A stretch of 35,431 nucleotides of DNA, taken from assembly GCA_021810565.1 (NCBI GenBank), contig JAJZIM010000030.1:1-35431 (forward strand), written 5' to 3'. The notes beneath the pieces were generated by a model. The model had not been told where the DNA came from, made no database searches, and worked only from the letters and a program-made list of their open reading frames with translations. A program made the position numbers and the translations under genes. Shown here piece after piece: positions 2,854 to 8,658 of the stretch (its first letter is position 1; the number at the start of each line of letters is the position of its first letter). This DNA is from Bacillota bacterium (GTDB taxonomy: Bacteria > Bacillota > Sulfobacillia > JAJZIM01).

Positions 2854-4460
2854 AGGCATCTACCCGCTTTTGGACGCCATCGCTGCCCTGTACGGCCGGG
2901 CGGAGCGCGCCCTCTTCGTGGACCACCACGTGCGGGGCCGCGCGCTTTCGGAATGCAAGCGGGAGTACATCCGGAATTTCGGTCTGACCGCGCGGCAGTT
3001 CAACGCCCTTCGGGCCAACCTGGACGGCAAGGTGGAGGCGGCGCGGGAAGGCCAATAGAACCGCATCGCCCACCTGCAAAATGCCATCGCCGCGGCGGCA
3101 AAAGCGGTGAAGAAGGCCGAGCGGGACCTGGCAAAGCTCCGGAACAAGAAGGTACGTGCGGCGCAGGCGGCGGAGCAAAGGCACCGGCTGCGCTTCACCC
3201 TGCACCAGAAGAGGCGGCGCCTTTACGCATTGAAACGACGCCTTGCTGCCGCCCAGGCGGATCACCAGGCGGGGCGGGTACGCCTCTGCTTCGGCGGGAA
3301 GAAGCTTTTCCATGCCCAATTCCACCGGGAGGCCAACGGCTTCGCGGACTTGGCCGCATGGCAGGCGGCGTGGCGCAAGCGGCGCTCCTCCCAGTTCCTT
3401 TGCCTGGGGTCCAAGGACGAGCTGGCGGGCAACCAGACCTGCACCCGAGTGCCGGACGGCACGCTTCGTTTGCGGGTGCCGCCTCAATTGGAGGCGGCCT
3501 TCGGAAAGCACGTCCTGGTCAAGAACGTCAAGTTCGCCTACGGCCAATCGGAGATCGACGCCGCCCTGCGTCGCGGGGAGGCGGTGACCTATCGTTTCCT
3601 GCGGTGCGACGACAAGCAGGCCTGGTACGTGCGCCTCGGTGGAGCGTCCGGAGGCGAAGCTCACCACGGATCGGCGCCTGGGAGCCCTGGGGGTGGATTT
3701 CAACCCGGCCCACGTGGACGTGGGCGAGATCGACCGCTTCGGGAATCCCGTGGGTGTCCGGTCCTTTCCGCTGGACCTGGCCAAGAAGACCAAGGCCAGG
3801 GCGACGGCCATCCTGTCGGAGGTCGCGGCGGACATCGTGGACAGGGCCCGGCTTTCCGGCAAGCCCCTGGTGGTGGAGGAGCTGGACTTTCGGAAGAAGA
3901 AGGCCGCCCTGCGGGAGAGGTCGCCCCGCTACGCCCGGATGCTGTCGGCCTTCGCCTATCGGAAGTTCTTCCAGTTGCTGTTCTCCCGGGCGGCCCGGTA
4001 TGGCGTGGAGGTGATCGGCGAGGGGGGAAAGCCGGGGGTGAACCCGGCCTTCACCAGCGTGATCGGCGAGGTCAAGTTTGCCTCGGGATACGGGCTGTCG
4101 TCGCACTGCGCGGCGGCGGTGGCCATAGCCCCTCCCCGGCCTTGCCGGGCTGAGGCACGGGAACGTCTTCGGTCCAGATCCGCCTTTCCGCTACCTGGAA
4201 GGAATCGCGGGAAGCACGTCTGGAGCGACTGGAGGCGTGTGGCCCAGAGGCGGCGGGCCGAAAGGGCCCGTGGTCGGATGCCTCAGGCCGGCAAGGCCGA
4301 AGAGGAGGGCCGCGGCAGGGGTAAACCCCTATCCTCGGCGGCACCTATCCGGGCTCCTGCCGGACAAGGCCCGTCGTGGGATGGTTTTGCCGCGGTTCCG
4401 GGGCGCGATACCCCGGCGCAAACGGTCGGGAAAACTGTTCGCCCGGCCTGCGTGGTATAA
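2819..4460 (+). pseudogene. tnpB: TnpB-type RNA-guided nuclease, inactivated by an in-frame TAG and a frameshift
   Basis: The ATG at 2819 follows a GAAGG-like site inside tnpA. The frame runs to a TAG at 3056-3058 (about residue 80), continues in the same frame with clearly homologous sequence to about 3635, then shifts to a second frame. The RuvC-like half is in the second frame: GVDFNPAHVDVG with the RuvC-I Asp, VVEELDFRKKK with the RuvC-II Glu, and NPAFTSVIGEVKFASGYGLSSH near the RuvC-III region. Where most TnpB proteins have an Asp before the final Ala-rich helix, this copy has His (SSHCAAAVAIA). No CxxC zinc-ribbon pair is visible between the Glu and this motif. A basic tail KHVWSDWRRVA is reached at about 4240. 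Two independent lesions make a full-length product impossible. Residues after about 4260 may be RNA rather than protein-coding. Confidence 0.8.
4296..4460 (+). ncRNA. Candidate omega RNA / structured right end of the IS607 element
   Basis: Three successive stem-loops follow the conserved end of tnpB. The first spans 4296-4342 and is nested: GCCG/CGGC, GAGGA (4302-4306)/TCCTC (4332-4336) and AGGGG (4317-4321)/CCCCT (4326-4330). The second pairs CGGGC (4350-4354) with GCCCG (4369-4373). The third pairs CCGGGG (4398-4403) with CCCCGG (4411-4416). Known omega RNAs overlap the 3' end of tnpB and finish at the transposon right end, with the guide taken from flanking DNA. This position and structure fit. 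The guide would then come from the start of the CPBP gene. Inference from structure and position only. Confidence 0.4.
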
Positions 4461-4466: not shown

Positions 4467-5351
4467 ATGGTTTCAGGAACGGTGGATTGGCGAGGCGTCG
4501 GGTGGTATCTGATCATCGCCTTCGGTCTGGCCTGGGCCATCGACGCCGGGATCTGGCGGCTGGGCGGTATCGGCGACCGCGGGATTTTCCAGGGGGGGGC
4601 GGCCCTGTCCATGTGGTGTCCGGCCCTGGCCGCCTGGACGGTGCGGCATCTGCGCCGCGAGGGCTGCGCCGACGTGGGCTGGCGATGGGGTGCGCCTGCC
4701 GCCTGGGCGGGGCTGTTGCTCCTGCTCCCCGTCCTCTTCGCCGCCGCCTACGGCGCGACGGCGCTTTTGGGCTGGGGCCGGCTGGACTTCAGCCGGGAGG
4801 GTGTTGCCGCCCGGCTACACCTGCCGGCCGGGCTGCTTCCACCCCATTGGGGGGCGTTCCTGGCGGTGCTTTGGCTCGCCACCGTCCTGGTGACCCCCTT
4901 CGTCAACGGCGCCTGGGCCTTGGGGGAGGAACCGGGCTGGCGCGGCTACCTGTTGCCGCGGCTGTGGCCGTTGGGCCGCGGGGGGGCCCTGGCCCTGTCC
5001 GGCGGGATCTGGGGACTTTGGCATGCGCCCTTGGTGGCCATGGGCTTCGACTATCCTGGCCATCCGGTGGCGGGGATCCTCTTCATGATGATGCTCACCA
5101 CCCTTTTCGGGGTGCTCCTGGGCTACCTGCGACTGCGCCACGGCAGCGTCCAACTGGCCGCCTTGGCTCACGGCGCCTTCAACGCGCAGATGTTCGGGGT
5201 GTGGCCCCTGGCCCTGGCCGGGGCCGACCCGCTGCTGGGGGGCATGACGGGTATTGCCGGCCTGTTCTTCCTGGCGCTGGTAGCCGCCTATTGCCTGCGG
5301 CGGGATTGGGTGCCGGTGGGAGACGAACCTGCGCCCCGGGATGCGGATTGA
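4467..5351 (+). CDS. CPBP family intramembrane glutamic endopeptidase (CAAX-protease-like)
   Basis: A 294-residue multi-pass membrane protein with about eight hydrophobic segments. The three family motifs are present: EEPGWR (E154, E155 and R159), GLWHAP with H186, and FNAQ near residue 237. In Abi/CPBP proteins the Glu pair, the His and the Asn make up the active site inside the membrane. Bacterial members act in protein processing, bacteriocin maturation or immunity, or membrane regulation; the substrate here is unknown. The ATG follows an extended -10 box and lacks a Shine-Dalgarno, as with tnpA. The gene stands alone between the IS607 element and the RNase H fusion gene, and no gene for a small peptide is obvious beside it. 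Confidence 0.82.
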   Translation: MVSGTVDWRGVGWYLIIAFGLAWAIDAGIWRLGGIGDRGIFQGGAALSMWCPALAAWTVRHLRREGCADVGWRWGAPAAWAGLLLLLPVLFAAAYGATALLGWGRLDFSREGVAARLHLPAGLLPPHWGAFLAVLWLATVLVTPFVNGAWALGEEPGWRGYLLPRLWPLGRGGALALSGGIWGLWHAPLVAMGFDYPGHPVAGILFMMMLTTLFGVLLGYLRLRHGSVQLAALAHGAFNAQMFGVWPLALAGADPLLGGMTGIAGLFFLALVAAYCLRRDWVPVGDEPAPRDAD

Positions 5352-5400
5352 GGACCTTCGAGCGGCCACGAAAGTGGCGTCGTGGTGAAGACATAGATGG

Positions 5401-5430
5401 TTGACTTGTGGGCGGCTGCCGGGCTATGAT
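5401..5430 (+). promoter_or_regulatory. Promoter of the RNase H fusion gene
   Basis: TTGACT (5401-5406), an 18-base spacer and TATGAT (5425-5430), each 5/6 to consensus. The transcription start would be near 5437, leaving an untranslated leader of about 120 bases before the GTG start at 5556. Confidence 0.65.
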
Positions 5431-5555
5431 TGGGGATAGCTGGATATTGCGAGCGAAAGGATGGGCGTGGCAGACCGCCCGGGACCTGGGCGGAGCAGGG
5501 TCGGCGCGACGGGCTTGGCGCCGGACGCGATCCAGCGCGTGAGGGAGGCGATCTG

Positions 5556-7487
5556 GTGAGCAGCGGCACGGCCTTGCGGTCGGAAGGCGCGACCGTTCTC
5601 GTTCCGCCATGGGCCGGACAGGGGACCGTCGCGACGGGCGCGGATGAGGGCTGGGCGGCGTACGCGGACGCCAGCTTCCGGGGCGGCGAGGGCGTGTGGG
5701 CCGCCATGCTGGCGGATCCCGGTGGCGGCGTGGAACGGATCAAGTTCTCCGGCGGCCGGTGCGCCGGCAGCCATGAAGCCGAGACGCTGGCGGTGCTCCT
5801 GGCGGCCGACCTGCTGCGGTCCAGGGGCGTGCGTGGCACCGTCTTCAGCGATGCCATGGGGGTCGTGCAGCGGGCTGGCACCCTCCTGTCGGGCCGGGAG
5901 GAAGTTCTGGCCGTGCTCTGGGTGCCTCGAGAGCACAATCAGATGGCGCATTTATTGGCCGAGCACGGCGCCGCCGGGTGGAATGCCGTCAAGTCCGCCG
6001 GCCGCCGGATGGTCATCCCGGCGTCGGCGATGGTGCCGCAGCCGGGGGGTGTTCCAGGGACCGCCTTCTCTGCGGGGGGGAGCGCCACCGGCCTCAATTT
6101 CGCCGTGGCGCCGGCAAAACTCAGCACGGCGATTTCCGCGATCTTGCGCAGCGCCGGGATGCCGGTGGACATGGATGAGATCCGCCGCAAGGCAGTCGCG
6201 GCATGGCCGGCGCTGGCGGCCAAGAAGGAGATCGACTTCATGAACGCCCTGGCGAGCCGGCTGGGCGACGGGGCCTTGCTGATGCTGCGGGACGGCCGGA
6301 TCGCCGTGCAGGCGGACGGCTTGCCGGTAATTGACCGGCAGGAAGCCCTTTTGCACATCAATCTGCGGATCGCCGAAACGGCCCGGCCAGGGACGGCGAA
6401 GAAGAAGAAGCGGGCGGACGATCTGACACTGGGTGGGCGCTCGGCCCTGGCGCAAATGATCCGGCAGGAAATGGCCAAGTGTGGCGGCATCCTCCCGCTG
6501 GGACCGCTCCTGGAGCGCATGACCACGGATTCCCCGTCGGCGGCGATTTTCTTCGAAAAGCCGCGCAACATCCATGCCGCCCTGGGCGGGATGGGGGAAC
6601 TGGCCGCCTCGGGCTCCTTCCTGGCCGTGGCGGGCGGGAAGTCGGTCGCCTTGCTGCTCGGGGGCGTCACCGCAGGTCCGAAGGAGGTGGCGGCCTTCTG
6701 CGGGAGCGCGCGCCTGGAGGTGGGCAGACTGCCCAAGAGGCCCGTGCGGCCGGTGGCATGGGTCAGCCGCAACTTCCGGCGGGCGGACCACCTGACTTCC
6801 GGCGGCCTGGAGGGATCTGTGCTGCTGCTGCCCGTGGGTGGGCATGCCGGGGCGCGGCAGCGCGTGTTGGTGCCGAAGGACGCCTTCGACGGCTTCGTCG
6901 CCCGCCATGGTCTCGACGAGGTGTTGCGGGCGCGGCAGGCGGAGGCCCAGGCAGAGGCGCTGCGGCGCATGGAGGAAAAGGCCGCCGAGGCCCGACGCCT
7001 TGCGGACGTTCTTTCGGACGCGGGCGCGGACCGGGCGAGCCTTGGGCTGCGTTCCCCCGTGGGTGGTCCCGGGCTACCCGGCGATGCGGCCATGAGGCTG
7101 CTCTCCCTGGCCGAGGCGTGGTCGCTTCTGGGCCTGGATCCCGCCGACGGGCGCCGCGCGGCGGAGCTCGGCCTGGTGGACCTGGTGCGCCTGGGCGGTC
7201 GGGAGTACGTCGGCACGGCCAAGGCGGGCCGGGTGCTGGAGGATCGGGAGACGGCGTTGGCCCCGGTGCTGGATGGGATGCAGGTGGCACCGTGGGAGGC
7301 GGCGGCCATCCTGGGCGTGGCCAGGAGCGTCATCCACCGGCTGCAGGAGCGGGGACGGCTGAAGGTGGTCGGATACGGTAGCTCCCGCCGGGCACAGTGG
7401 CCGCTGTTCAGGCGCGGCGACGTGGCGGCGTTGCGGAACCGACTCCCCGCCCTGCTGCGGGACCTGGCGGCGGCCGCCGGCCGGTGA
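5556..7487 (+). CDS. RNase H-like domain fused to winged-helix-like domains, unknown function
   Basis: A 643-residue protein with no full-length family that I recognise. The GTG start at 5556 has GGGAGGCG five to seven bases upstream. Residues about 30-140 form an RNase H fold of the RVT_3 type: ADASFRGGEG (D38), SHEAETLAVLLAADLL (E76), VFSDAMGVV (D99) and VPREHNQMAHLLAE. At the last motif the usual catalytic Asp is His132. Residues about 190-270 and 300-380 look like two winged-helix-type units, with a Lys-rich linker KKKKR near 290. A charged helical stretch lies at 460-490 (Glu/Ala/Arg rich). The last 70 residues contain WEAAAILGVARSVIHRLQERGRL, an excisionase/MerR-like helix-turn-helix. 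A nucleic-acid-acting protein is likely. It has its own promoter and no operon partner. Confidence 0.75.
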   Translation: MSSGTALRSEGATVLVPPWAGQGTVATGADEGWAAYADASFRGGEGVWAAMLADPGGGVERIKFSGGRCAGSHEAETLAVLLAADLLRSRGVRGTVFSDAMGVVQRAGTLLSGREEVLAVLWVPREHNQMAHLLAEHGAAGWNAVKSAGRRMVIPASAMVPQPGGVPGTAFSAGGSATGLNFAVAPAKLSTAISAILRSAGMPVDMDEIRRKAVAAWPALAAKKEIDFMNALASRLGDGALLMLRDGRIAVQADGLPVIDRQEALLHINLRIAETARPGTAKKKKRADDLTLGGRSALAQMIRQEMAKCGGILPLGPLLERMTTDSPSAAIFFEKPRNIHAALGGMGELAASGSFLAVAGGKSVALLLGGVTAGPKEVAAFCGSARLEVGRLPKRPVRPVAWVSRNFRRADHLTSGGLEGSVLLLPVGGHAGARQRVLVPKDAFDGFVARHGLDEVLRARQAEAQAEALRRMEEKAAEARRLADVLSDAGADRASLGLRSPVGGPGLPGDAAMRLLSLAEAWSLLGLDPADGRRAAELGLVDLVRLGGREYVGTAKAGRVLEDRETALAPVLDGMQVAPWEAAAILGVARSVIHRLQERGRLKVVGYGSSRRAQWPLFRRGDVAALRNRLPALLRDLAAAAGR

Positions 7488-7671
7488 CGCCGGCCGCGCG
7501 GTGCCCCGGTGGCCACGGGTCGTCCGCGATCCATGAGGAAGAAAGAAGGCGAGGCGATGGGACGTCCGGCGCACTCGTCGGCCGGGGCGCCCGTCTGACG
7601 GGGGGCGGCTGGATATTCCGGGCGCCGGGCGGGTTGGGGCAGACTGCCCGGAGCCTGCGGCGTAGTACAGC

Positions 7672-8658
7672 ATGGGGGATGAGGAGTTGAGTAATCCGCG
7701 GCTGGTAAGGAGCGTGTGGGCAAGCGTGGCGGGGGTCGTGCTGCTGGCGGGCTGTGCCTTTGGGAGTCATCAGCCCTCCCCCCGGCCTGCCGCCAGCGGG
7801 TCAAAATCCCGTCCGGCGGCCCCCGCCGTGGCGAGCCCGGCGGCAAGCCCGAAGGTCCCCCCGCTCATCCGTAGCCTGCGGGTGGTGCCCGCGGCGGTGT
7901 CCCAGGGCGATACCGTGGACATCCGCCTCTCCTTCAACGCCGCGCCCGCCGCCTGGCAGCTCACCGTCAACGGCACGCCCTACCCGGCCTACCCCGTAGG
8001 CGTTGACCGCTACCGGCTGCTTCTAGGTACCGACCCTTGGAGCGCCACCGGCAGCTTCCAGGTGCTGCTTTCAGCCCGGGGGCCGGCCGGGACGGTCCAG
8101 GCCGCCACCGGCTACCGGGTGTTGCCCCGGGCGTATCCCCGGCGCACGGTGACGCTTCCTTCCGGCAAGGTTGCCCTTTTGTCGCCCCAGGTGGGTCAGG
8201 AGGAGGAGGCTCTGGCCGGGGCGGCCCTGGCCGTGCGCACCGACCGGCAGTTGTGGAGCGGTCCCTTCCAGGAACCGATACCGGGGGCGCCCATCGATTC
8301 TCCCTACGGGGAGCAGGGGGTGTACAATGGGCGGTTGGAGTGGTTCCACGGCGGGGTGGACTTCACCGCGAAGACCGGCACCCCGGTGCACGCGGCCGCC
8401 GCCGGCATGGTGACCCTGGCCCGTCACCTGCCCCGGGGCGGCGACACGGTGATCGTCAACCATGGTCAGGGGGTCTTTTCGGAATACCTGCACCTTTCCA
8501 GGAGCGAGGTGGCCGTGGGACAGGTGGTGAGCGCGGGGCAGGTGGTGGGTCTGGTGGGCGCCACAGGGCTCACCACCGGACCGGGCCTGCACTGGGGCGT
8601 CTTCGTGAACGGCATCCCGGTGGACCCGCTCTCTTGGGCCCAAAACCCGCCAGCCTGA
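7672..8658 (+). CDS. Lipoprotein with M23 (LytM-type) peptidase domain, one catalytic His replaced
   Basis: A 328-residue exported protein. A hydrophobic N-terminus ends in the lipobox LLAGC, so it should be anchored by its Cys after signal peptidase II. A Pro/Ala/Ser-rich linker follows, then an Ig-like module (about 65-150) and the M23 domain (about 200-325). Zinc ligands are visible: H226 and D230 in HGGVD, and H307 in LHW. H274 in YLH is also present. The usual HxH pair is GxH here (G305), so one catalytic His is missing and activity is uncertain. The ATG at 7672 is given; the TTG at 7687 makes a better basic signal-peptide start and is equally possible. It precedes the transporter genes and may act on or bind peptidoglycan at the cell surface. 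Confidence 0.82.
   Translation: MGDEELSNPRLVRSVWASVAGVVLLAGCAFGSHQPSPRPAASGSKSRPAAPAVASPAASPKVPPLIRSLRVVPAAVSQGDTVDIRLSFNAAPAAWQLTVNGTPYPAYPVGVDRYRLLLGTDPWSATGSFQVLLSARGPAGTVQAATGYRVLPRAYPRRTVTLPSGKVALLSPQVGQEEEALAGAALAVRTDRQLWSGPFQEPIPGAPIDSPYGEQGVYNGRLEWFHGGVDFTAKTGTPVHAAAAGMVTLARHLPRGGDTVIVNHGQGVFSEYLHLSRSEVAVGQVVSAGQVVGLVGATGLTTGPGLHWGVFVNGIPVDPLSWAQNPPA

Follow-up and report, generated by a model that had tools for sequence, protein, structure and literature searches.

The closest described relatives of the protein reported here are the RVT_3/RNase H1 proteins (archaeal-type enzymes and bacterial RNase HI), with which it has the core fold and the succession of D, E, D and R..N..A motifs in common. 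It departs from RNase H1 in having His for the fourth Asp, a gap of ~16 residues, neither GNPG nor TNN, and ~500 extra residues. At the fourth catalytic position of E. coli RNase HI, the D134N and D134H variants are described, in a passage of PMC4032109 that cites Haruki et al. 1994, as keeping reduced activity and gaining stability, and the same source, citing Tsunaka 2003, gives Asp134 as dispensable for Mn2+-dependent activity. RVT_3 domains on longer proteins with an extra domain are likewise found in Rv2228c (RNase H + phosphatase), and Firmicutes RNase H fusions (L065, L069, L072 and L076) end in a C-terminal Cys/His tail that is SWIM-like by eye. The CxC...CxH pattern of that tail marks another type of RNase H fusion. 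The protein reported here differs from Rv2228c and the Firmicutes fusions in carrying an HTH array as its extra domain and in the far greater divergence of its RNase H domain.

The window (the whole 35,431-nucleotide stretch of DNA analysed) is contig C28 of a 3.2-Mb genome, in which the fusion gene is present in a single copy. A protein of 643 residues had been claimed from the sequence alone, and the gene was confirmed at 5556–7487 on the + strand with a GTG start. We tentatively read its product, in a leading but by no means secure interpretation drawn from sequence comparison, as an accessory RNase H1-type protein that would be targeted by its HTH tail and might share the substrates of a Ski2/Mtr4-like helicase. 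The features on which the argument turns are as follows.

2248–2853, upstream of the fusion gene: IS607 transposase (TnpA)
4467–5351, upstream of the fusion gene: CPBP protease
5401–5430, + strand: sigma-70-like promoter, TTGACT-N18-TATGAT (10/12 matches; 0.1 expected in shuffles)
5461–5559, + strand: possible 32-codon leader ORF (MGVADRPGPGRSRVGATGLAPDAIQRVREAIW and a stop), overlapping the main start by GTGA; could be chance
5543–5548, + strand: Shine-Dalgarno sequence GGGAGG, read from the sequence, 7 bases 5′ of the GTG start
5652–5996, + strand: RNase H-like (RVT_3) domain, residues 33–147 (Pfam, alignment, model, Foldseek)
5667, 5781, 5850 and 5949, + strand: codons of D38, E76, D99 and H132 (alignment)
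6114–6311, + strand: possible winged-helix unit (H-H-H-beta-beta), residues 187–252; low-confidence secondary structure, no family match
6408–6665, + strand: possible second winged-helix unit, residues 285–370; low-confidence secondary structure
6876–7031, + strand: long helix (possible coiled coil), residues 441–492; no other stretch of the single-sequence model exceeds pLDDT 70
7089–7478, + strand: tandem HTH module, residues 512–641 (helicase-extension profile; HTH1 ~514–560, HTH2 ~574–636)

The RNase H-like domain and His132

An RNase H fold of the RVT_3 type had been claimed for the N-terminal part, and Pfam, alignment, modelling and Foldseek all bear this out. The Pfam match to RVT_3 (PF13456) is borderline, reaching 23.2 bits on residues 1–180 alone (cut-off 21.6) and 24.2 bits in a frame search, and falling under the cut-off, at 18.8 bits, on the full 643-aa protein. 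In an RNase H alignment of 18 rows (17 RNases H plus the fusion protein), the columns that hold D38, E76, D99, R125, N128 and A131 are invariant, and the three acids and His132 all occupy the places first assigned to them. Structure prediction guided by an alignment gave the domain an RNase H fold with the elements in the order βββαβαβα (pLDDT 83.8, pTM 0.79); because that alignment consisted of true RNases H, the model is biased towards their fold and is consistent with it, not independent proof. The best Foldseek match of the model was 4h8k (E 1e-5, TM 0.63–0.66), matches in the PDB comprised LC11 RNase H1 (4h8k), Halobacterium RNase H1 (4e19) and Rv2228c (3hst), the best solved structures being RNases H1 of its own subgroup, and the E. 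coli D134H crystal structure (1kvb) was among the fold matches. An RNase H profile from the organism's own class alone gave the domain 7 bits, behind 1 of 1000 shuffles; Pfam, motif order and the model carry more weight, and we judge the similarity of residues 1–180 to RVT_3 to be real but remote. At another locus (G000:C1:15643, E 4e-24) the genome encodes an ordinary RNase HI, so the fusion protein is an additional one and not the housekeeping RNase H.

Three of the four DEDD acids are kept (D38, E76 and D99), and with His132 in the fourth place the four-acid set is incomplete. A scan of ~85,000 genomes for the motif V-P-R-E-x-N-x-x-A-H-x-L-A gave six matches, two of which are, by translation, complete D-E-D-H RNase H domains that keep the other three acids: an Acidobacteriota RNase HI (L063:6553–6969) and a Clostridia protein (L064:5449–6084). 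Another match (L059) is an RNase H-like tail, and the remaining ones look like chance frames. Within this motif, and as judged by the scan, the change of the fourth Asp to His is rare but not unique, and in L063 and L064 nature provides test cases for a D-E-D-H active site. The Clostridia protein (Clostridia bacterium AS23ysBPME_66, 212 aa) reads YTDASF, E, SDCQGTV and WVPREENEEAHMLAQQ, where the fusion protein reads YADASF, E, SDAMGVV and WVPREHNQMAHLLAEH. A two-sequence BLASTP comparison of the two gives 4e-8, of which the part covering the last motif is not independent, since L064 was found through that motif. Unlike the fusion protein, L064 has no HTH array, keeps the β4-β5 insert and ends in a short unrelated tail.

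His132 alone is no argument for inactivity, since the E. coli D134H enzyme keeps reduced activity. The substrate-contact motifs are also altered (the GNPG loop to GGEG, and TNN before the Glu to GSH, within GSHEAE), and ~16 residues, the β4-β5 helices, are missing between β4 and β5 relative to the rest of the aligned RNases H. These changes may have abolished hybrid binding, and they argue against ordinary RNase H activity more strongly than His132 does. The sequence-only reading had proposed action on RNA/DNA hybrids or nucleic acid binding; there is good support for the fold and for a role in nucleic acid binding. The domain most likely still binds RNA:DNA hybrids, and from its sequence there are perhaps even odds that it would cut them.

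It is a real possibility, if not the one we favour, that the RNase H fold is catalytically dead and serves for binding only, as a regulator or scaffold that recognises hybrids or structured nucleic acid, or that holds a partner. Replacement of the fourth acid, shortening of the β4-β5 helices and loss of GNPG and TNN fit such a reading, as does a protein made up mostly of DNA-binding parts, and a family review (PMC3985635) observes that RNase H-like domains lacking a complete active site are frequently inactive; nonetheless, the three other acids have been kept despite far sequence drift, the reading frame is undecayed and, according to the passage on D134H in PMC4032109, that E. coli variant is active. 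We regard as quite unlikely a nuclease with another substrate, cutting DNA or structured RNA under HTH guidance, for example in DNA repair beside a Ski2-like helicase. The nearest relatives of the domain in sequence and fold are all RNases H1, which speaks against such a substrate even though the hybrid-contact motifs of RNase H1 are missing, the C-terminal part is of DNA-binding type, and some RNase H-fold nucleases use an active-site His, with diverse substrates in the family (PMC3985635).

The tandem HTH module and Ski2/Mtr4-like helicases

Residues 511–641 hold the only cross-genome similarity of the fusion protein outside the RNase H domain. The module first surfaced, among 398 genomes of the phylum, as weak matches to two long proteins, in both of which the matched region is the N-terminal extension of a Ski2/Mtr4-type DEAD-box helicase (DEAD + DSHCT). 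The C-terminal excisionase-like HTH of the sequence-only reading is present and is excisionase/MerR-like, but there are two in tandem, not one; its scores lie below both curated cut-offs (HTH_17, 19.3–20 bits against 27; excise, TIGR01764, 15–15.7 against 28.8). When the search was reversed, the helicase extension found the fusion gene in its own genome (E 2.7e-4), and across the 398 phylum genomes the fusion gene came next best after the true helicase relatives. Twelve genomes of another class were also matched, most of which, by inspection, carry such helicases.

A helicase-extension profile (A4) was built from 12 such helicases with the fusion protein left out, and its best match in the 154 genomes of the class was the fusion protein (E 5.9e-11, 43.6 bits), with both HTHs matched in order over profile positions 12–127 of 132. 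The next best matches in the class were helicases with the N-terminal module, at 29.6 and 27.4 bits, and the remainder were partial or single-HTH matches of ~25 bits or less. Profile comparison of the module by hhalign gave a probability of 97.9%, and its HMM score was 38.6 bits, compared with at most 4.8 for 1000 shuffles. By these measures the C-terminal module is linked specifically to Ski2/Mtr4-like helicases, a connection that the earlier reading had missed.

Helicases with an N-terminal tandem HTH occur in the same phylum (L010, L011, L054, L056, L057, L079–L083, L085 and L087) and in the same class (L089 and L090). Like their extensions, the module here has two consecutive MerR/excisionase-type HTHs, aligns from end to end and has in common with them RRGD and the helix that follows; unlike them, it is C-terminal, is joined to an RNase H domain without a helicase, and lacks the R-x-W of the first HTH. 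No helicase domain was found in the fusion protein, and the genome's own DEAD + DSHCT helicase (G000:C14:7122–9371) is without the tandem HTH module. Presence of the module on the fusion protein and its absence from the helicase are suggestive of a swap, seen in one case and not as a correlation. The helicase link consists of the shared module only, the fusion gene being on contig C28 and the helicase gene on C14.

The Ski2/Mtr4-like helicase of genus g193 is divided between two overlapping frames, always at one point between the two RecA domains (L017:6105–10104; also L011, L054 and L083). Programmed frameshifting was considered there and set aside, two overlapping genes being the simpler explanation given an AGGAGG Shine-Dalgarno sequence and a GTG at the junction (L017:8532–8550), which suggest two separately started polypeptides. 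A 281-aa protein (L012:1462–2304) has, besides a Cys-rich C-terminal part, an N-terminal HTH that resembles HTH2 of the fusion protein (32% over 56 aa).

The winged-helix-like units earlier proposed for the middle of the protein were not supported by family or PDB searches. Residues 150–510 matched no family, PDB sequence or helicase extension, and comparison of the middle region with the winged-helix-like part of the helicase extensions likewise gave no match. What is left are H-H-H-beta-beta patterns (~189–250 and 285–370) in the low-confidence single-sequence AlphaFold2 model of the full protein, which, with a pLDDT of 37, is of no use overall.

The gene, its distribution and its neighbourhood

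The gene lies in an open frame that spans 5430–7487 (+), and its likely start is the GTG at 5556; initiation at the TTG of 5430 is improbable, since the −10 element of the promoter overlaps it. GC content by codon position is 0.75/0.55/0.85 and stays constant along the whole ORF in 60-codon steps; 5′ of 5556 the main frame is not coding-like (0.81/0.67/0.62), the 635-aa antisense ORF opposite the gene lacks a coding GC signature, and no decay of the reading frame was seen. The promoter claimed for the gene is where it had been placed, and is the only promoter-like site within 5200–7800. The 643-aa fusion gene is a real gene. The 32-codon ORF at its start has codon GC of 0.72/0.66/0.91, with a coding-like GC3, and no good ribosome-binding site; it is a possible leader peptide with coupled translation. 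A search for a structured leader RNA gave a fold z-score of 0.0 and no Rfam match in the leader. The view that the gene has no operon partner stands for the large neighbours (gaps of ~200 and 184 bases) and fails for this small ORF, which overlaps the start.

No full-length homologue beyond the protein itself was found in its own genome, 60 relatives, the 154 genomes of the class, the 398 phylum genomes, 113 genomes of another class, plasmids or phages. Exact-peptide scans of 84,980 genomes and viral contigs, which find close relatives only, also gave none. The earlier statement that the full length is covered by no known family holds, and within all collections searched the fusion protein is, by sequence similarity, an orphan. 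Weak matches to a gene that reads as prolyl-tRNA synthetase (L002), to a malic-enzyme-like gene (L013) and to a frame that is spurious by reading (L004) were discarded as chance, and a combined whole-protein alignment was dropped as misaligned.

Both neighbours named earlier, the IS607 element and the CPBP protease gene, were confirmed upstream. Downstream lie an M23 peptidase and a YknW/MacA/MacB-like ABC exporter set (operon), thiamine genes and an M23/M50–RNase G–Obg region. The IS607 element looks decayed: the frames at 2953–4460, after TnpA, overlap and by eye resemble broken TnpB-like pieces, and a Pfam search of 3639–4457, the putative TnpB remnants, returned nothing. The CPBP gene stands between the element and the fusion gene, which is outside the element and has its own promoter, and nothing was found that ties the fusion gene to the IS607 and CPBP neighbours.

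A role in defence or mobile-element control had been suggested, and the evidence here does not sustain it. That the gene is part of the IS607 element or a solitary anti-phage factor might be argued from the upstream TnpA, the excisionase-like HTH and the orphan distribution, but is very improbable in view of the intervening CPBP gene and separate promoter, the native composition (GC3 0.85) and the genes downstream (exporter operon, thiamine and M23/M50–RNase G–Obg). No defence genes were recognised near the fusion gene, PADLOC matches amount to weak HTH similarity to mad1 and AbiEi, those in PHROGs are generic HTH similarity too, and searches of viral contigs, phages and plasmids gave no relatives. 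That the frame is open by chance in GC-rich DNA is hardly credible: the absence of a homologue and the long spurious ORFs on the opposite strand could be cited for it, but against it stand a coding signature over all 643 codons, a promoter and Shine-Dalgarno sequence, and two independent in-frame domain matches.

Proposed role and significance

On our best reading, the fusion protein would be an accessory factor that cuts or binds RNA:DNA hybrids, is directed by the HTH tail and possibly works with a Ski2-like helicase. Judging from the type of HTH, the tail most likely binds DNA or targets the protein to a complex, and the tandem HTH and the uncharacterised middle would together bring the protein to a DNA or nucleoprotein site. 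Elsewhere the module is part of Ski2/Mtr4-like helicases, and the organism's own helicase is without it; the fusion protein and that helicase may therefore share substrates, on which both would act, and a link between the two is plausible. A fuller scheme, in which helicase and HTH module would have parted in this lineage, and the helicase and an RNase H that cuts with a D-E-D-H active site would clear RNA:DNA hybrids as a pair at sites picked by the HTH array, we consider unlikely.

The combination of an RNase H domain with a tandem HTH is, on sequence evidence, new in the collections searched. It joins RNase H and the Ski2/Mtr4-type helicase, both of which handle RNA:DNA hybrids, through a common targeting module. 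Should the domain prove inactive, it would illustrate how an RNase H fold can be taken over for binding. The combination also raises two testable questions: is a naturally occurring D-E-D-H RNase H active, and do HTH-extended bacterial Ski2-like helicases act on R-loops?
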